Shown one piece after another: positions 1,365 through 10,953 of a stretch of DNA of 64,000 nt. The translations under genes and the position numbers were made by a program. The notes below the pieces were generated by a model, which ran no database searches, had not been told where the DNA came from, and saw only the letters and a list, made by a program, of their open reading frames with translations. How positions within the stretch are numbered: the stretch's first letter is position 1; each line of letters starts with the position of its first letter. The stretch lies in NCBI GenBank assembly GCA_025526995.1, contig JAHLKG010000018.1:620001-684000 (forward strand). The letters are read 5' to 3'. This DNA comes from Powellomyces hirtus (taxonomy: Eukaryota; Chytridiomycota; Chytridiomycetes; Spizellomycetales; Powellomycetaceae).

Positions 1365-2400
1365 CTCATCGTTGACTACCTTTCATGCCGCGTGATACTT
1401 CTACCTACTAACACATACGCTACAGCTCGGGAGACGGCTCAACTCTTTCTGGAACAGGCATTTCGCCACACGGGGTTGCCCCACACCATCGTGAGCGATC
1501 GGGACCCCAAGTGGCTATCAGAATTCTGGCGGTACCTCATGCGGGCACTTGATGTCAAGCAGGAACTCTCGTCGGCACAACACCAACAGACCAACGGCAA
1601 GGCAAAAAACGCCATCAAGATGGTCAAGGGAATCATGGGCCCCTTTCTTGACTATGCCAGCTCCAACTGGAGGAGTTTACTCCCCACACTCGAGTACAAC
1701 TACAACCGAACGCCGCAGACGTCGACGGGACTATCCCCTTTCGAGATTGACCTAGGCCGCGTCCCCCGGGTACCGAACCAATGGGTAGCACCTAACCCCG
1801 GAGAGATGATAAGGCAATCGGCACAAACCGCCGTGGATAGACGGGTTAAGGAATTCGCCGACGTGAGTCGCATCGTGCAGCAACGGCTCTGAGACGCACA
1901 GGACCAGCAGGCAAAGTACTACGACCGCAAGAAGCACACGGAAGCATACCGAGAGGGTGACAAGGTCTTACTCCATTGTGAGGGTATTGCGATTACCAGC
2001 ATCACCACAACGAACAAAAAGCTGGCTGGGCAATGGATTGGGCCATTGACAGTATGCGGCAAGGGGCCGCATCCTGACCCCTACAAGCTCGAACTACCCA
2101 AGGAGTTCACCGGGTTGCACCCAGTCTTTCATGTCAGCATTCTGAGACGGTACCATGACCCGGGTGGTACCCCGTACAGACAGGTCACCGCTCCGCCTGA
2201 GCCCAAGAAGGACGAAGACGGTCAGGAGACCTACCAAGTGGACAAGATCCTAAATGCCAGATGGCACAGGAACACCGAGCAGTTCTTAGTCAAGTGGACA
2301 GGTTACAATAACACCCAGAACACGTGGGAGCCGTATGCACATGTGAAGGGAACGACTGCACTGGAAGAATGGCTCCGGGAGCACCCTGGAGAGGACCGCG
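1365..2400 (+). pseudogene. Chromodomain gypsy element: integrase, GPY/F and chromodomain remnant
   Basis: One frame runs from the integrase core (IVDYLSC, TARETAQLFLEQ, IVSDRDPKW, SSAQHQQTNGKAK) through a GPY/F-like segment (GQWIGPLTV, FHVSILRRY) to a chromodomain (YQVDKILNAR, FLVKWTGYNN, NTWEPY) at about 2238-2390. This order is typical of Ty3/gypsy chromoviruses. The catalytic Asp of VSDRD is visible, while the usual second-Asp-to-Glu spacing ends in NGKAKNA where N.hxxE is expected, so the Glu is probably lost. An in-frame TGA at 1890-1892 stands where Arg CGA is expected. The 5' part of the element is missing because the gag element is inserted at 1364/1365. The downstream boundary runs into minisatellite. 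Confidence 0.85.
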
Positions 2401-2435
2401 GCCAAAGGCTAGCAACCAGGCGACGTAGAGGACAT

Positions 2436-3400
2436 TATAGTGCGAGATCCCGGCATCGTTGGACGATGGCCGAAGGCTGCTGGGCAGCATACCTCAGTGA
2501 GAAAGATGCCAGCATCATTGGACAATGGCTGAAGGCTGCTGGGCAGCATACCTCACTGGGTGAGATGCCGGCATCGCTGGGCGATGAGCCGACGGCTTGC
2601 CGATGCAAGGTGACCGGCACCAGATTTGCATGGCGGCGTACCTCGAGATTCGCGGGGACCATGGCCGTAGTACATACCCACGCGAAGGGGAAGAGAAGGG
2701 CTCAGCCAAGATACCTGCATCGTTTGACGATGGGCCAAAGGCCGCTGGGTGGCGTACCTCACTGGGTGAGAAGGGTGATGCTGGACATCGACCGGCTTGC
2801 AAATGCAAGGTGACCGGCACCAGATTTGCATGGCAGCGTACCTCGAGACCCGCGGGGACCATGGCCGCAGTACATACCCATGCGAAGGGGAAGAGAGGGG
2901 CTTCGGCCAAGATACCGGCATTGTTTGACGATGGGCCGAAGGTTGCTGGGCGACATACCTCGCTGGGCGAGATGCTGGGATCGCTGGGCGATGAGCCGAA
3001 GACTGCGAGGCAGTAGACCTCACGAGGTGAGATGCCGGCATCGTTGGACGGTGGCCGAAGGCTGCTGGGCAGCATATCTCGCTGGGCAGGATGCCAGGAT
3101 CGCTGGGCAATGAGCCGAAGACTGCAAGGCAGTAGACCTCACGAGGTGAGATGCTGGGATCGCTGGGTGATGAGCTGAAGACTGCAAGGCAGTAGACCTC
3201 ACGAGGTGAGATGCCGGCATCGTTGGACAAAGGCCGAAGGCTGCTGGGCAGCATATCTTGCTGGGCGGGATGCCGGGATCGCTGGGCGATGAGCCGAAGA
3301 CTGCGAGGCAGTAGACCTCACTAGGTGAGATACCGGCATCGTTGGACGATGGCCGGGGAACCGCTGGGCAGTCTTCCCAATGGGGAAGTGTGATGCAGGG
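2436..3400. repeat. GC-rich minisatellite with 60-bp period
   Basis: Degenerate tandem units of 60 bp (core words GCCGAAG-CTGC, GGCAG, GATGCCGGCATCG, CTGGGCGATGAG) recur in register at about 2980, 3040, 3100, 3160, 3220 and 3280, with less regular units from 2436. A 100-bp segment at 2597-2700 is repeated at about 2797-2900. Because 60 is a multiple of three, several long repetitive antisense frames stay open; these are treated as by-products. The array lies directly after the chromodomain and may have been part of that element's 3' region. Confidence 0.8.
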
Positions 3401-3603
3401 CATCTACCATGAGCACCATAGCTGGGAGGAAGCCGAGTGACATTGGACACAGCGGACGCATACAAAATGCTACAAGGCTCAAGGGAGCACAGCGATGAGA
3501 CGGCAAGTACAGCGATGAGATTTTGGTACTGAATTTGATTACGGCCCGAGGGCCAGGCCCCAAGGGAGCAACAGACAACAATCGAAAGTATATACAAGAA
3601 ATT
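3401..3603. other. Short spacer, no feature seen
   Basis: Unique-looking sequence between the minisatellite and the poly-G tract. No coding frame or LTR ends are recognised. Confidence 0.4.
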
Positions 3604-3623
3604 GGGGGGGGGGGGGGGGGGGG
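3604..3623. repeat. Homopolymer of 20 G
   Basis: Twenty consecutive G on the plus strand, just past the stop codon of the RING-like gene. It could form a G-quadruplex and its exact length is likely to vary or be misread. Confidence 0.9.
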
Positions 3624-3631
3624 AGAACTAA

Positions 3632-4323
3632 TCAACCAATCTTGGTGAAGGAGAATTGGCACCGATTGCCGTGGCACCGGTCGCCCAACCCGCACCGGAG
3701 GGGGGTGTAATTTGCCACGTTCATCTCGCTGCGAAGAGAGCTGAGTTAGTCAGGTAAGACAGCAGCAGGCCGAAGAGTACTACTTACGCGCGGACGTGGC
3801 CCATGCAGTGGAGATGGTTGCATGGAAACATGCCGAGGTCCGCTCCGACATGGTTGCAGCCAGCGAGCTGGCACCCAGCGGGGATGGCCGCAAAGAAGAG
3901 GACCCGGCCGCAGTGGGGGGCGCCGCACGTCAGCTGGCCCTGAGGGCCATCGTTCTGGAAAGCAAAGGAACAAAGGAACCACACCGTTAGGAAGACATCA
4001 GGCCGCCTGACAGCAAAGGGGGAACATACCGTGTCGTCGGCCGCCGCCACAATGCAGGACCTGCACACCAGATGGTGGCATTCCGACATGAACATCTTGC
4101 TCTTGCGGAAAAGGTGGCACTTCCAGCAAGAGGGCAAGTCGGCCGACCTCTCGGGGGTGGACTTTTCATGGATCGAGGGGTCCTGTAGATAACAAGGGAA
4201 GACGGGGAACATGAGACGAGTTGCCACAACCGAGGATGAGCACCGACCCCTACTTACCCGGGTGGGCTGGGCCCGCTTGGTTGCGCCTTTCGCGAGTTGT
4301 TGGGCGCGCCGGCGCTTGCCCAT
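3632..4323 (-). CDS. Small Cys-rich RING-like protein, four exons
   Basis: Exons at 4258-4323, 4030-4182, 3788-3954 and 3632-3728 are joined by GT-AG introns (GTAAGT...CTACAG, GTATGT...TTCCAG, GTAAGT...TTCGCAG with a CTGAC branch-like site) and give 160 aa in one frame. After a basic N-terminus (GKRRRAQQ) comes CWKC, eleven residues, then CHHLVCRSC, which fits the first half of a RING finger (C-x2-C...C-x-H-x2-C-x2-C). Further Cys/His follow (CGAPHC, CQLAGC, CNHLHC, CGLGDRC). The layout recalls Zip3/RNF212-type RING proteins, but that is only a loose resemblance. Introns 1 and 2 are both 75 bp with no stop, so unspliced RNA would also be open. A 3-exon form ending at 3784 is possible. It lies between retroelement remnants; whether it is a resident or captured gene is unclear. 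Confidence 0.6.
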
Positions 4324-4380
4324 GGTGGTGGTGGTGGTGTCGAGGGGGAGGAGAGTTGTTGGGGGTGTCAGCCATGGTAT

Positions 4381-4396
4381 GTGTGTGTGTGTGTGT
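4381..4396. repeat. GT dinucleotide microsatellite
   Basis: Eight GT units in the upstream region of the RING-like gene. Confidence 0.85.
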
Positions 4397-4439
4397 GCTG
4401 TGTGAGTTTGTCAAGCTACAAAGAAAAGAAGAGCAAGAG

Positions 4440-4814
4440 GGGAAGATTCAACGGGCAGTACCTTTTAAAGGCTCGACCTGCCTGGGAACGCTCGGAAATT
4501 CAGTTGTTAGTGTTTCATCCCCTACGGAGCGCAGCAGATGTTACTTATCGAAATCCGCATGGAGGAAGCTACTCGTGATTCATCCAGGGCCCCTGCGACG
4601 AGAGAAATAGACTTTCCAATGACTCCGCGCACCACGAAGGGCGGAGACTATCCGCCGGAGACTACCACGACGCAACCCGCACCAGGGCCGCCTCTCCAGC
4701 CTCATCTTCCCATAACCACGTCAGCATCCGTTAACCTGCCGCCGTCCGGCTTATGCAAGCTTCGCCTCGCTGAAGAGATTCGAGCCTAAGAGATAGTCGC
4801 GAATCTAAGGGGGG
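4440..4814 (+). pseudogene. 3' tail of a gypsy-type pol plus polypurine tract
   Basis: A fragment starting RFNGQYLLK, a usual chromodomain opening in gypsy pol, quickly loses frame. A Pro/Thr-rich tail then ends in LRLAEEIRA and a stop near 4789. AAGGGGGG at 4807-4814 immediately precedes TGTAAT and reads as the polypurine tract before a 3' LTR. Together these mark the end of a gypsy element distinct from the one at 1365-2400, whose own chromodomain is complete. Confidence 0.55.
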
Positions 4815-4999
4815 TGTAATGAGGCGTGGCTCGCCAACCTAAGCCTAGACACGCATCGGGGAGGGCCCCGCGCAAGATGGATGCTAGCGTCAGCATCCCG
4901 AAGGGTACTAGACCTCAGGGATGGCCACGGATGGCCATCACGTGACCGGGACCGCCTCGCGGTCCAGAAGAAAAGTAGGAATACTCCGACAAGGGCGTA
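4815..4999 (+). repeat. Gypsy 3' LTR, left part (split by copia element)
   Basis: The block starts TGTAATGAGGCG right after a polypurine tract. It is interrupted at 5000 by the copia element and seems to resume at 10316, ending TATTATTACA at 10410. The ends TGTAAT/ATTACA are inverted repeats, giving a reconstructed LTR length of about 280 bp. No second copy is in the window, so the right end is inferred. Confidence 0.5.
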
Positions 5000-5363
5000 T
5001 TTATTGGAATGTTGAGCCTTGTGTACTCAACGTTAGTCCTTACATTGGATCCTAATTTGGAATCTCCGGCTAGAACGTGTGACCGTGATACCGGTAACGC
5101 TAAGAGCTGAATTGGATCACGTGTGATCACGTGATTGGAGAAAAAGTAGATTAGAACGCTCGAAGCGAGACATTACCGATAAGACTTTAAGACAAGAAAT
5201 ACATTCATATACATTACATCTCCGTGCATCTGACAACACTACACCGTCATCTGCATCACAGAAGAGCTCTGTAAACCCCCTTTACGAAGTATACTGGAGG
5301 CCACATCGAATTCGGCCAATCCTCTGCATTTCCGATAAAGTACTGGAAACGTCGATATCTTCA
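5000..5363 (+). repeat. Copia 5' LTR
   Basis: 364 bp, identical in length to 9951-10314. It begins TTTATTGG where the 3' copy has TGTATTGG, and ends CTTCA. The first base pair of TG is mutated. Most differences between the two LTRs are transitions. Confidence 0.9.
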
Positions 5364-5366
5364 ATA

Positions 5367-5377
5367 GGTTATGAGCC
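5367..5377 (+). promoter_or_regulatory. Primer-binding site matching the initiator tRNA anticodon arm
   Basis: GGTTATGAGCC, three bases after the LTR, is complementary to GGCTCATAACC, the anticodon stem-loop of fungal initiator methionine tRNA. Drosophila copia and relatives are known to prime from an internal cut of this tRNA, so the match fits copia biology and differs from the CCA-end priming inferred for the gypsy elements here. Confidence 0.7.
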
Positions 5378-5481
5378 TTGAGACCGGTCGAATTCGAATC
5401 ATTCTCCCTTCGTAAAACCTGCAAACTACAAGTCTTCCGTCGAAATTCAAGTGCCAAGAAAGTACCGAGCACACCGTCAAG

Positions 5482-8400
5482 ATGCCTACTGCAAGATCTC
5501 CCATTGAAGGAGTGCAGACCCGCCAACAAGCCCGTCAAGCCACACGAGAAGCCCAACGGGGTCCTGACGCTGAAGAAGACGTTAATATCGATGCCTTGAT
5601 CTACCATGATTCCCACGATGCAGATGCCGATGTGGATGAGATGAATCATGGAGAAATTCATGCAGACTCGGCGATAGTACCGTCCGAAGTACCGACTGAC
5701 ATTGTCATGGAAATTCTGCAGAGGTTCAAGATGGAAATCGACGAAAAGCTCGACCATCGGATGGACAGGTTGGAGAGGACTTTATTGACTAGTTCAAACC
5801 CTCTCGCTACATCAACTTCCCATCAACAACCCGAGAAGTACGAAAAGCCTCATATCAGTGGTCATCCTACAGCTGTTTCACCGATGAGAAGCCCAAAAGC
5901 GGGCCTTGAGTACCCTTTTCTACATCAACACATTACTCACGGCAAAGTTGAAGCCCCAGTTGCCCCTCACTTTCGTCCGTCTTCCCCAACGGAGAGCACA
6001 ACAACTACGAGCAGCAGAAAGAGCGATGATCGAGACGCACAACGTACATCATTTGCATACTTCAAATCTGCGATTGATGCAGTATCTACATTCGACGGGA
6101 CGGGAAATCTCTCAAAACTCGCCGACTTCATTGATCAGCTTACTCTAGTCTTTCGCCTAAAACCTGTATCTGAAGAAGAACAACTCTCATTCATCTTCAC
6201 AAAGCTCTCTGGCGAAGCAAAACAATGGTATCGTAATCACCAGAAAGATGCCGAACAAGGGATGGTGGAGCCCATCACGGATTGGGAATCCTTCAAGCCT
6301 CCTTTCCTCTCGCGTTACCAACCAAGCGATCACGAAGAAACTTTGCTCACTCAACTTGAAAGACTCCGACAAGGAAGTCATTCCATCTCGCAGTACAATA
6401 CCTCATTCACGAAGATTACAAGTCAAATCCCCTTGAAGGTGCCGTTCGAAATTTACAAGTGGTTTTACCTTCGCGGAATGAATGAACATCATGCAGAGCT
6501 CGTCAGAACTCAAAGTTTCAAGGATCTCCATGGCCTCATGGCAGCTGCCAAGCGTCTGGATAACGGTAGTAACAAGAGTAACCAAAACAACCGTTTCGCC
6601 AAGAAGAGCGAAAACATCGCGCTCGAAGCCCAACCTTCAAAGAAAGACGGCTCAAGTCACAAGAAGACCGACGCGAAGAAGACCACAGACTCGAAGAAGA
6701 GACAGAACTTCCCCTGTTGGTTTTGCAATTCGAATGAACATACCCCATTCAATTGTCCCCTCAAAGCCAAGGCAGTCGAAGCCTTAAAACCCGCTGCTAA
6801 TGCCAACATTGCAGAAGCACATAACGCCACTACATTGGCATACCTGGATTTGGGCTGCTCAAAGCACATGACGAATGACATTTCCATTCTCGAATCCTAC
6901 GAAGAGCACTCAATGCGCGTCAGATTTGGAAATAACGCCTTTCTTGATGCCGAAGCGAAAGGGAACGCTATCTTGAAGCTTAGTCTCTCCAGCTCTCCCG
7001 CCGGCCCCATACTCTCCAGTGAGGGGGCTGGCCAGCCCCCCACTGGAGAGTGAGAGTTGTGGGTGCTGTGGTGGGGGGCCGGCCGCCCCAAAAGCATTGG
7101 ATAATGCTGAGGATGGTGCCCCCGAGGGGGCACCATCCGCCGATGGCGCCGCCGCCGCCGCCGCTGCTTCGGCGGCTTCTTCTGGGGCTTGTTCTGGTCC
7201 CTTTTCTCCTGTCAACGAAGGAACCCTCTGGCATCACCGATTGGGCCATCCTGGCACTCACATCATGAAGCAACTCAAGCTCCCAATGACCAACGAAGTC
7301 TGCAAAGGTTGCGAGTTTGGTAAGCACAAGCGCTCACCATTCAACGGTACGATGACACGGTCCAAGACGCCACTCGATCGCCTACATTTCGACCTAAACG
7401 GTCCGCACATACCCGCGGTTGGCGATGAGAAATATGCCCTCGTTGTGATCAATGACTATTCACGCTTCACATGGATCTTCTTCTTGAAGACGAAGAGCGA
7501 ATCTACTGCAAAATTGATTGAATTCATCAATTTCATCGAAAAACAGACCAACGAAAGGGTGAGACGACTTCATTCCGATCGAGGGGGGGAGTTTGTCAAT
7601 CACGATCTGAAAGAATTCATTTCGAAAAAGGGCATTCTGCACAAACTCACCGCTGCAGATTCCCCACAGTCTAACAGTGTAGCTGAAAGGTTCAACCTCA
7701 CCCTGTTCGACACCATTCGTTCTTTGGAACACTCATACGGCATCCCGAAACAACTCTGGACCGAGTTAGCGGCTACATCAGTCTACTTACGGAATCGCCT
7801 ACCCCACATGTCCAATAACAACATTTTGCCGTACGAACGGCTCAATGGCGAAGAGCCCTCACTTTCTCACCTTTGTGTGATTTGGGCCGATGCCTTCGTG
7901 CATCTCGTCAAGAGAAAACAAGTCTCAAAGTTGGCACCGCGCACCACACGTCTCAAACTCATCGGTTACGAATTTGACGGCGCTTACCGCTATTGGGATG
8001 ACAACCGTCAAGAAATAGTCATTTCTCGCGATGTAACGTTCGACGAAAATTCAGCACTCGACCTCGCGAAAGACTACATCCGGCCCGAAGAACTCTACGA
8101 AGTCGAAGAGATTCTCGACTCACGTGATGGCCCGGAAGGCCCCGAGTTCCTCTGCAAATGGCTAGGATTCGAAGACAAAGATAATACATGGGAACCGCTC
8201 GAAAATGTCAATCATTTGACAGTCTTCGCTGACTACATCAACGAGAAGACGGCGAGCGCTCTTTCGGCTGCAAGTACCGAAGAACCCCAAACCTACAAAC
8301 AAGCGCTCTCATCAGATGACGCGCCGAAGTGGACCGAGGCCATAAATGCTGAATTGAAGTCCCTTCATACCAATGAAACATGGGAAGTCATTAACCCCAA

Positions 8401-9913
8401 ATCCTTACCGCACAATCAACGGCCCATCCGCACTAAATGGGTATTCAAGATTAAGCAAGACCTGAATGGTCAACCCCAACGATACAAGGCCCGGCTTGTA
8501 GTGAAAGGCTTCGAACAACGCTACGGCATCGACTACAATGAAACCTACGCTCCGGTTGCCAAGATTGCCACCCAACGCGTCCTTCTCGCTCTCGCCGCCA
8601 ATCTAGGCTTGAAATGCCATCAAATGGATGTAGTAACCGCATTCCTGAATGGGATTGTTACCGAGACCATCCTAATCCATGCTCCTGAAGGCTCTGGCTT
8701 TCCGCCTGGGACCATCCTTTGACTCCGAAAGGCCCTTTACGGTCTGAAACAAGCCCCGCGCGAATGGTACTCCCTACTTCACAAAGAACTGACCTCTTTG
8801 GGATTCAAGCGCCTGGCAAATGACAATGCCGTCTACATCAGAACTCTATCTGAAAGTGACTCATCGCAGTACATCTCCGTCTACGTCGACGATCTCCTCA
8901 TTTTCGCAAAGACCGAATCGGAAATCTCGTCAATCAAGACATCCCTGCACAACGAGTTCAACATGACAGACCTAGGCGAAGTCAACCACTACCTAGGAAT
9001 GAGAGTTCGACGCGATTACTCAAGGCACGTCATCTACCTCGATCAAGAGTCATATGTAAATGACATCCTCGAGCGCTTTGGTATGCAAGATTGCAAGCCC
9101 GTCAACACTCCGATGGACCAGACCAAGCTTGAACCCTACGAAGTCGAAAATACAAAGACTTCACCTAACCAGCAAGAAGGAGAATATCGCGAAATCGTTG
9201 GTTCTCTCATGTACCTGATGATATGCACGCGTCCTGACATTGCTGTCGCAGTCAGTATGCTTTCTCGCTTCGCAAGCAACCCTTCGCCTCAACATCTGCA
9301 AGCTGCAAAGCGCAATCTTCGCTACCTACGGGGAACATCAGATTACAGCCTCTGCATCGGCGGAAATAATGTCACCCTTCACGGCTACAGCGATGCCGAT
9401 TGGGGAAACAACATCATTGATCGACGGTCAATCACTGGCTACCTTTTCTACATTGGAAATGCGGGCCCCGTTACTTGGGCTTTGAAGCGCCAACCCACCG
9501 TTGCTCTCTCATCTACCGAAGCTGAATCCATGGCACTTTCCTTCGCCACTCAAGAGACAATCTGGCTTCGCTCACTTCTGCAAGAACTCCAAATCCCCGA
9601 ACATCTCGATGAAAATGCTCGACCTACAACGATCTACGAAGACAATCAGTCATGCATCTCGTTGGCAATGAATCCCGTGCATCACGCCCGTACCAAGCAC
9701 ATCGACATTCGACATCACTTGATTCGTGATCACATCGACAAGGAGATTCACCTGGAGTACTTACCCACCGCTGAAATGGTAGCTGACTCACTTACGAAGC
9801 CTTTACCGGCCCCGGCATTCAAATACCATCGCGAAAACATGTGCATCAAGCACTACGACAACACCATCACGCCAATGACGAAAGCGTCCATGACGGAGCT
9901 CCCAAATGAGTAA
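5482..9913 (+). pseudogene. Copia element gag-pol (Gag, PR, INT, chromodomain, RT, RNase H)
   Basis: The ATG at 5482 opens a frame to about 7000. A Gag core (about 6060-6560: GEAKQWYRNH, WESFKPPFL, LERLRQGSHSISQY) matches the gypsy-type PF03732 pattern. Next come a CCHC knuckle (CWFC....H....C, about 6715-6756) and a protease site in which the usual D-S-G reads D-L-G (6847-6855, TCG to TTG). After a palindrome-rich stretch the frame shifts and continues: H2C2 domain (LWHHRLGHPG, CKGCEFG), integrase with FDLNGP, LHSDRGGEF and VAERF, a chromodomain (about 8090-8245: YEVEEILDSR, CKWLGF, NTWEPL), reverse transcriptase (KALYGLKQAP, YVDDLLIF) and RNase H (SDADWG, STEAESMA, EDNQS). An in-frame TGA at 8720-8722 lies just before KALYG. 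The frame ends at a normal TAA at 9913. Confidence 0.9.
7011..7138. repeat. Cluster of GC-rich palindromes inside the copia coding region
   Basis: A near-perfect palindrome at 7011-7051 (20-bp arms beginning ACTCTCCAGTG, centred on CTGGCCAG) is followed by GGCCGGCC at about 7077-7084. A small hairpin GCATT/AATGC lies at 7095-7108. A perfect 13-bp inverted repeat, GGATGGTGCCCCC with a GA loop, spans 7111-7138. A GCC-repeat stretch continues to about 7165. This occupies the place where copia proteins normally carry about 70-100 residues between protease and the H2C2 domain, and the reading frame changes across it. Confidence 0.85.
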
Positions 9914-9943
9914 AATCCCATCATCGCGGATCGATTGCTCGGA

Positions 9944-9950
9944 CAGGGGG
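9944..9950 (+). promoter_or_regulatory. Polypurine tract of the copia element
   Basis: CAGGGGG just before TGTATT of the 3' LTR, the expected plus-strand primer site. Confidence 0.7.
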
Positions 9951-10314
9951 TGTATTGGAATGTTGAGCCTTGCGTACTCAACGTTAGTCCTTACATTAGA
10001 TCCTAATTTGGAATCTCCGGCTAGAACGCATGACCGTGATACCGGTAACGCTAAGAGCTGAATTGGATCACGTGTGATCACGTGATTGGAGAAAAAGTAG
10101 ATTAGAACGCTCGAAGCGAGACATTACCGTTAAGACTTTAAGACAAGAAATACATTCATATACATTACATCTCTGTGCATCTGACAACGCTACACCGTCA
10201 TCTGCATCACAGAAGAGCTCTGTAAACCCCCTTTGCGAAGTATACTGGAGGCCACATCGAATTCGGCCAATCCTCTGCATTTCCGATAAAGTACTGGAAA
10301 CGTCGATATCTTCA
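9951..10314 (+). repeat. Copia 3' LTR
   Basis: 364 bp, starts TGTATTGG, ends CTTCA, about 2.5% different from the 5' LTR by eye. Confidence 0.9.
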
Positions 10315-10315
10315 A

Positions 10316-10410
10316 AAGTATTCAAGACTTAGGGATCTTACAGTAGAATTAGAGAAAGGGAATTCCCGAATAGAAGACTAGACTCTGGCAACGGACCTAG
10401 TATTATTACA
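10316..10410 (+). repeat. Gypsy 3' LTR, right part
   Basis: Proposed continuation of the LTR begun at 4815, ending TATTATTACA. It rests on the TGTAAT/ATTACA end match and on the copia insertion between the halves. Confidence 0.4.
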
Positions 10411-10710: not shown

Positions 10711-10726
10711 CCTATTCATCATACCT

Positions 10727-10953
10727 CAACATCTGCAAGCTGCAAAGCGTGTTCTTTGCTACTTGCAGAGGACATCCGCTTACAGCCTTTGCATCGGCAG
10801 AAAAAATGTTACCCTGCATGGGTTTAGCGACGCTGACTGGGGGAACAACATCATTTATCAACAGTCAATCACTGGCTACCTTTTCTACATTGCAAATGCG
10901 GGCCCCGTTACATAGGCTTCAAAGCGCCAACCTACCGTTGCTCTCTCATCTGA
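10727..10953 (+). pseudogene. Copia RNase H fragment, diverged second copy
   Basis: The sequence aligns with 9287-9525 of the copia element: HLQAAKR, SDADWGNNII, SITGYLFYI, NAGPVT and QPTVALSS are all recognisable. It carries small deletions and a TAG where the intact copy has Trp TGG. Both ends are abrupt. Confidence 0.85.

Follow-up and report, generated by a model that had tools for sequence, protein, structure and literature searches.

Can a retrotransposon that belongs to Ty1/copia by its polymerase and gene order carry the capsid and the chromatin-reading module of Ty3/gypsy elements, and, if so, is such an element a local accident or one member of an established lineage? The question is raised by a stretch of 64,000 nucleotides of the chytrid Powellomyces hirtus (contig JAHLKG010000018.1, positions 620,001 to 684,000; hereafter the window), in which a long terminal repeat (LTR) retrotransposon of Ty1/copia order occupies positions 5002-10317. 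The original prediction for this locus, made from the sequence alone, described a copia element with a gypsy-type Gag and a chromodomain between integrase and reverse transcriptase (RT), and saw in it a chimeric lineage in which targeting ability had moved into copia. Here, we report that a copia pol combined with a gypsy-type capsid and a chromodomain is almost certainly an architecture shared by a lineage. The best explanation for the whole, which we hold to be reasonably likely, is that of a deep copia lineage with a gypsy-derived capsid and a chromodomain that steers insertion.

Architecture of the window element

Retrotransposons are classified by RT similarity and domain order, as stated in the excerpt of a survey of fungal LTR elements cited here (PMC3248453). 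All features of the window element lie on the + strand. Its gag (5482-6840), in the frame spanning 5416-7053, matches Ty3_capsid PF19259 (5.4e-18) and Retrotrans_gag PF03732 (9.2e-15), with the capsid core at 6070-6558 and a CCHC knuckle at 6715-6756, and the same frame runs on into Pol_BBD, the copia protease region (8.3e-8). Copia-type Gag domains (PF14223, PF14244, or UBN2) were not found in the window Gag at E values up to 1, so the predicted assignment to PF03732 holds. The frame at 6977-8719 contains the integrase (7208-8053), composed of a pre-integrase zinc region (7208-7327; gag_pre-integrs, 3.1e-8), an rve core with its D-D35-E residues (7382-7666; 8.9e-13), and an SH3-like region (7847-8053; SH3_retrovirus, 9.9e-18). 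It is followed by the chromodomain (8093-8260), with Chromo PF00385 scoring 1.5e-12 at amino acids 374 to 414 (8096-8218), where it had been proposed at about 8090-8245. The RT (8372-9115) is of the RVT_2 type, both in this frame (1.3e-29) and in the next one (8723-9910; 4.7e-29), with the YVDD motif at 8882-8905; RVT_1 scored 0.042 on the window pieces, below its cut-off. The RNase H region, which extends from 9383 to the end of pol at 9913, is recognized by its motifs (GYSDADWG, 9383-9406; TKHIDIRHH, 9692-9718), as the Pfam scan of the translated pieces gave no RNase H match. The motifs from which copia order had been predicted are thus present, together with D-D35-E and CCHC.

Given its protease-integrase-RT-RNase H order, RVT_2-type RT, LTRs, 5-bp target-site duplication, and tRNA-Met primer site, the element belongs to Ty1/copia; it lacks the usual copia-type Gag, a trait not used for classification. 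With Ty3/gypsy chromoviruses it shares the chromodomain at the C terminus of the integrase and a PF03732/Ty3-type capsid, the latter known in the gypsy protein P0129 and four others, but not an RVT_1-type RT with the integrase after RNase H. The predicted position between integrase and RT corresponds to the integrase C terminus, the same place relative to the integrase as in gypsy chromoviruses. Two elements of the same genome illustrate the contrast. The ordinary copia element L050 has Pol_BBD, gag_pre-integrs, rve, SH3, and RVT_2 in the same order as the window element but carries a copia Gag (PF14223, 6.6e-43) and no Chromo match, whereas in the chromovirus L051 the RT is RVT_1 and the integrase, of the H2C2 kind, comes after it.

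Copies and relatives

The family of the window element (F1) has at least 75 long matches in the scanned genome (29.26 Mb, 60 contigs), the window copy included, which are 82 to 100% identical (75 of 904 candidates scored; 75 of 76 listed rows used, a 29-residue row being dropped). As all copy numbers given here count listed matches only, they are lower bounds. Stop-free frames of at least 1,600 amino acids occur in 9 of the 75 matches, and the integrase-chromodomain-RT order is repeated in at least 75 copies, in some within frames that include Gag. A second family (F2, represented by L049) is about 43% identical to F1 across integrase, chromodomain, and RT; its first frame (590 amino acids) contains PF03732 (8.1e-15) and its second (912 amino acids) SH3, Chromo (1.3e-9), RVT_2 (1.5e-66), and rve just below the cut-off (3e-6). 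For F2, 40 of 74 listed rows were used, since 32 were F1 copies (42 to 43% identity) and 2 were second pieces. In L049, the gag frame (258-2027) and the pol frame (1913-4648, both stop to stop) overlap by 115 nucleotides in different frames, which suggests a frameshift or a separate start, unlike the single continuous frame found in open F1 copies and in the environmental proteins P0102 to P0104 described below.

The search for relatives that had been proposed with the prediction extended this picture beyond the assembly. Six P. hirtus proteins (P0001 to P0006), the nearest named ones among the matches listed, are F1 members by sequence, 73 to 89% identical over the matched part. They differ from the window element in being partial fragments, which hold most of the plan; P0003 covers the end of Gag (83% identity over 32% of the window Gag), and the capsid core was not seen in any of the six. 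Their record names (five “DNA-directed DNA polymerase,” one hypothetical) do not describe the chimera. Among the 101 matches listed in the protein search, 8 carry PF00385; one of these (P0072) is listed with several chromodomains but without any retrotransposon domain. The profile search (46 matches) retrieved three environmental polyproteins of full length, namely P0102, P0103, and P0104. Each is encoded in one frame, of 1,413 to 1,467 amino acids, that comprises PF03732, PF19259, Pol_BBD, gag_pre-integrs, rve, SH3, Chromo, and RVT_2; P0010, P0113, P0118, and P0125 carry parts of this set. In that search, Chromo was present in all three full-length matches that combine PF03732 with a copia pol, and neither Chromo nor PF03732 appeared in any of the 12 matches with a copia Gag (PF14223/PF14244).

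Could the arrangement merely reflect a nested insertion or a misassembly that placed gypsy and copia pieces side by side? The window copy is indeed defective and has gypsy remnants close by (1365-3297 matches L051), but the same order in at least 75 copies, in F2, and in other assemblies refutes this idea, to which we attach next to no probability. Since the same make-up recurs in separate DNA collections (source label ncbi for the P. hirtus proteins; jgi, lgn, and ena for the other relatives), it represents an established lineage and is no chance product of one locus.

A common branch in the pol tree

We use “chimera” for members of the lineage with a copia pol, a PF03732-type Gag, and a chromodomain, represented in the pol tree by F1, F2, P. 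hirtus P0002, P0102, P0103, and P0104. In a tree of integrase, RT, and RNase H built without the chromodomain (26 copia rows, 780 columns), these six rows fall on one branch (support, 96/99). The tree is unrooted, several of its branches are long, and sequence composition gave rise to warnings. Of the 32 rows with sufficient coverage it includes 26, six near-copies being left out; P0008 and P0010 fell below the coverage bound. Trees of RT alone, in one of which 19 of 48 rows were dropped (ten long branches, nine near-copies), neither recovered nor rejected the grouping, so that integrase, RT, and RNase H together are needed to see it. We regard a single ancient origin of the chimera lineage as quite probable.

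Origin of the capsid

A structure model of the window capsid (mean predicted local distance difference test score, 81.5) has dArc1, PEG10, Arc, PNMA2, and Ty3 as Foldseek neighbors. However, the model is matched by Copia, Ty1, Ty3, and retroviral capsids alike, and because Copia and Ty3 capsids score alike, we discarded the predicted structure as proof of a Ty3-derived Gag. A capsid hidden Markov model (HMM) seeded with five chimeras and one gypsy sequence matched all five gypsy Gags, one of which (P0129) was itself in the seed, and none of six ordinary copia Gags at E values up to 10. In the capsid tree (19 rows), chimeras are separated from gypsy with support of 82/95 (not starred), and one unassigned row, P0140, lies among the chimeras; the tree took 19 of 20 rows, L048 being left out since its longest frame has no capsid match, its earlier match being in a shorter frame.

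These data have to be weighed against the idea that the PF03732-type Gag was retained from the common ancestor of copia and gypsy and that the chromodomain alone was gained. Two observations speak for retention and count against a gypsy source: the pol trees are unrooted and leave many deep copia branches open, and the capsid model is matched across copia, gypsy, and retroviral capsids. Yet the 12 copia-Gag matches all belong to PF14223/PF14244 and none to PF03732, and the gypsy-like Gag and the gypsy-like chromodomain occur together. We consider retention quite improbable and gypsy the probable source of both Gag and chromodomain, with the direction of exchange resting on parsimony because the pol trees are unrooted. 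In the explanation that we favor, both modules would have been taken from Ty3/gypsy elements via template switching between co-packaged RNAs, prior to the split of the families. A Ty3/PEG10-like particle would enclose the RNA of the resulting element, tRNA-Met would serve as primer, and the copia RT would make the DNA copy.

Origin and predicted ligand of the chromodomain

The closest PDB sequence to the window chromodomain is HP1beta/CBX1 (4.4e-11), and the best Foldseek matches of its structure model are Rhino and CBX1 with trimethylated lysine 9 of histone H3 (H3K9me3; E value, 3.8e-4). As modeled, the domain has an HP1-like fold. Its aromatic cage consists of Y, W, and F, aligned to Y, W, and F of HP1beta, as expected of a Group I (classical) chromodomain. 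In fly HP1, W45 is the third cage residue. The fly cage also includes Y24 and Y48, according to the part of the source cited (PMC3350952). Across the lineage, the cage reads Y/W/F in F1 and Y/W/Y in F2, P0010, P0102, and P0104, whereas P0103 has F for the first Y and P0008 has Y for the W. Though incomplete, this conservation in F1, F2, P0010, P0102, and P0104 suggests selection for ligand binding, and binding of H3K9me2/3 by the window chromodomain is predicted from its modeled structure. The host genome contains an HP1-like frame with a chromodomain and a chromoshadow domain (C12:791270-791848) as well as one Pre-SET match, so that the mark required by such a reader is probably present.

From where was the domain acquired? 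In the chromodomain tree (21 rows, 56 columns), a split with support of 95/96 sets chimeras plus gypsy apart from the host chromodomains, of which few were sampled, and from a third copia family, F3; for a clade of chimeras only, the approximately unbiased (AU) test gave a P value of 0.31. Left out of this tree were near-copies (three F1, nine gypsy, and one F3 row), P0002, L099 (without a motif match), P0001, P0005, and P0113. Capture from a host HP1-like gene, instead of from gypsy, would fit the top rank of HP1beta in the PDB sequence search, where no retrotransposon chromodomain was among the 60 rows listed, and the HP1-like chromodomain of F3 in the same genome; both points run counter to a gypsy source. 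In contrast, the chimera chromodomains group with gypsy and away from the host ones (the 95/96 split), and the AU test rejects placing F3 alongside the chimeras (P = 0.012), a placement chosen after inspection of the tree. For the chimeras, host capture is therefore unlikely in our view. Of the chimeric lineage as originally predicted, the gypsy-type capsid, a real chromodomain that groups with gypsy, and the sharing of both by a lineage are borne out; that recombination with gypsy produced it is what we infer from these patterns, the pol tree being unrooted.

A third copia family with an HP1-like chromodomain

The family F3 emerged from the eight loci of top PF00385 matches. Four of them (L021, C1:1816825; L022, C23:552441; L023, C12:824324; L026, C26:132828) have a copia pol in which a chromodomain follows the SH3 region and precedes the RT, as in L022 (Chromo, 2.8e-17; RVT_2, 7.1e-55); L028 is a broken relative, and L024 is gypsy-type. 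The L023 chromodomain shares 48% identity with its host HP1-like counterpart, and the chromodomain tree places the two together (93/91, not starred). While forcing it together with the chimeras was rejected in the post hoc test mentioned above, forcing it together with chimeras plus gypsy was not (P = 0.20). By sequence, the F3 chromodomain may thus have been captured from the host. Placement of F3 in the chimera clade by pol was neither shown nor rejected (AU P = 0.50; P = 0.58 with RT), and F3 may or may not be sister to the chimeras. The 721 bases upstream of F3 (L133) gave no capsid match and one weak zinc-knuckle match (E value, 0.14).

Ends, defects, and neighbors of the window copy

The predicted extent of 5482-9913 proved too narrow, as it leaves out the LTRs. 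LTR-LTR comparison places the 5′ LTR (365 bp, ending in TATTG...CAATA) at 5002-5366 and, together with the sequence itself, the 3′ LTR at 9953-10317; the two are identical at 357 of 366 aligned positions, a count that includes one base outside the LTR. A target-site duplication, GTATT, can be read on the left (4997-5001) and on the right (10318-10322). The LTR termini are TA...TA, unlike the usual TG...CA. At least 41 full-length or nearly full-length LTR matches exist elsewhere in the genome (40 of 410 candidates scored). The primer binding site, GGTTATGAGCC (5367-5377), is complementary to the anticodon arm of tRNA-Met, its 11 bases being matched by three genomic tRNA-Met genes (L129 to L131); copia elements are primed internally, by a half-tRNA. 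The purine-rich tract GGACAGGGGGTG (9941-9952) adjoins the 3′ LTR.

The window copy is defective, in that its open reading frame is interrupted; other copies have open frames. By Pfam and by comparison with other copies, the start of the protease is preserved (6841-6981; Pol_BBD positions 2 to 49 of 81), and its remainder has been deleted at a junction with a frame change (6982-7023). The gap between protease and integrase measures 42 nucleotides here, 485 in five copies (L007, L010, L012, L014, and L020), and 502 in L015, so that about 443 bp were lost. In addition, a TGA codon (8720-8722) lies within the RT.

Upstream, the gypsy remnant at 1365-3297 is 84 to 92% identical to L051 at the DNA level. 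A tandem array with periods of 60, 119, and 179 bp occupies 2445-2597 and 2910-3355, and since parts of it match L051, it is probably part of that element. A 228-bp RNase H piece (10724-10951), 86% identical to 9287-9514, lies about 400 bp past the 3′ LTR and is a remnant of another copy.

Distribution in the genome and the question of targeting

Work by Gao and colleagues from 2008 is said to show that chromodomains target heterochromatin. We considered where F1 and F2 copies lie relative to blocks of L050-type copia matches. The L050 family itself (at least 73 rows, 98 to 100% protein identity) is ordinary copia with a PF14223 Gag. Its 73 rows and 133 of 150 RVT_2 rows, the latter taken to be of the L050 kind, were merged into 131 points; the 17 RVT_2 rows excluded comprise 15 on F1 or F2 copies and two unassigned ones (C16:525229 and C17:65141), in or beside a block. 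Joining points less than 80 kb apart gave 28 blocks, of which 5 single-point blocks were excluded. The remaining 23, with at least two points each, lie on 22 contigs, one per contig except for two on C7 (e.g., C28:3106-58556, C16:511834-598453, and C8:380402-440935), and are putative centromeres held by a copia element.

On block-bearing contigs reside 47 of 75 F1 and 27 of 40 F2 copies. Of these, 25 and 15, respectively, are found outside a block but no more than 50 kb from one; this band makes up 10.7% of the sequence and was picked post hoc, after the bands had been inspected. Four F1 copies lie inside a block, and about 20 kb separate the window copy from the block on C18. In 5,000 random placements, the observed number within 100 kb was never reached for F1 or F2.

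Three results from other elements, however, weaken the reading that the chromodomain causes this pattern. In the same placements, the observed number was likewise never reached for all RVT_1 matches (150 listed rows, all used), with a P value of 0.007 for the chromovirus family (L051; 73 of 76 listed rows used, three second pieces being dropped). RVT_1 elements outside this sampled family (78 of the 150 rows were more than 6 kb from any listed gypsy row), taken irrespective of whether they carry a chromodomain, are as enriched within 50 kb (22/43) as F1 (25/47). Finally, the chromodomain-bearing chromovirus family is less enriched (14/44) than F1. We thus dropped chromodomain-directed targeting, which the original prediction had inferred, as an established fact. 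The clustering of F1 and F2 fits chromodomain targeting and shelter from selection equally. That the chromodomain does not aim insertion at all, the pericentromeric excess arising from selective removal elsewhere and shelter among repeats while the architecture remains as described, is a serious contender that we place a little short of even; against it stand the cage aromatics retained, though incompletely (F in P0103, Y in P0008), across the lineage. Guidance of insertion by the chromodomain has, in our judgment, about an even chance. If it operates, the fusion of integrase and chromodomain would tether the DNA to H3K9-methylated nucleosomes, and insertions would accumulate in pericentromeric heterochromatin.

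Relation to known elements and implications

Red-algal PyRE10G copia elements may also carry chromodomains, an idea for which the searches gave no confirmation. Among published cases, which are cited here from excerpts, the diatom Ty1/copia element CoDi-A has a putative chromodomain at the integrase C terminus, with none detected at that time in other Ty1/copia elements and an independent capture suggested (Llorens et al. 2009, PMC2774666), and chromoviruses and CoDi-I are the sole cases named before the authors' own Chronos by Ustyantsev et al. (2017, PMC5348765). A chromodomain in a Ty1/copia element accordingly has a precedent. The window lineage shares copia order, copia RT, and the integrase C-terminal chromodomain with CoDi-A and CoDi-I but is fungal and environmental and has a PF03732/Ty3-type Gag, the excerpts naming no Gag type for CoDi-A; the comparison is one of published descriptions. 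Chronos, from oomycetes, likewise gained an integrase chromodomain outside the chromoviruses; it differs in being a gypsy element with the integrase at the end of pol (PMC5348765). In the excerpts of other sources, chromodomains are tied to gypsy in fungal LTR elements (Muszewska et al. 2011, PMC3248453), further chromodomain gypsy lineages are added in a 2025 Ectocarpus paper (PMC12477816), Chromo occurs only in elements coded RLG (PMC4502367), and it is among the common domains of one library (PMC10691877). For a centromeric copia element of Ganoderma, the excerpt lists GAG, INT, RT, and RH and mentions chromodomains generally, ascribing none to the element (PMC10817607). A literature search with subscription journals mostly outside its scope turned up neither a copia element described with a PF03732-type Gag nor a chromodomain copia described from fungi. 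The chromodomain in copia is thus itself already published, whereas for the Gag exchange and the fungal cases we found no report.

It is tempting to speculate that copia integrases of chytrids and environmental eukaryotes gained chromodomains at least twice, once together with a gypsy capsid and once, in F3, from host HP1, and that copia elements are, like gypsy, steered into H3K9-methylated heterochromatin around centromeres held by another copia; we put this forward tentatively, as possible rather than likely. Since superfamilies are sorted by RT and gene order, the lineage demonstrates that the border between them is permeable to capsid and chromatin-reading modules. The P. hirtus genome, moreover, offers a natural experiment, with such a reader on two unrelated integrases beside a copia family that has none, and the likeness between F3 and HP1 bears on how frequently transposons take up chromatin readers from their hosts.

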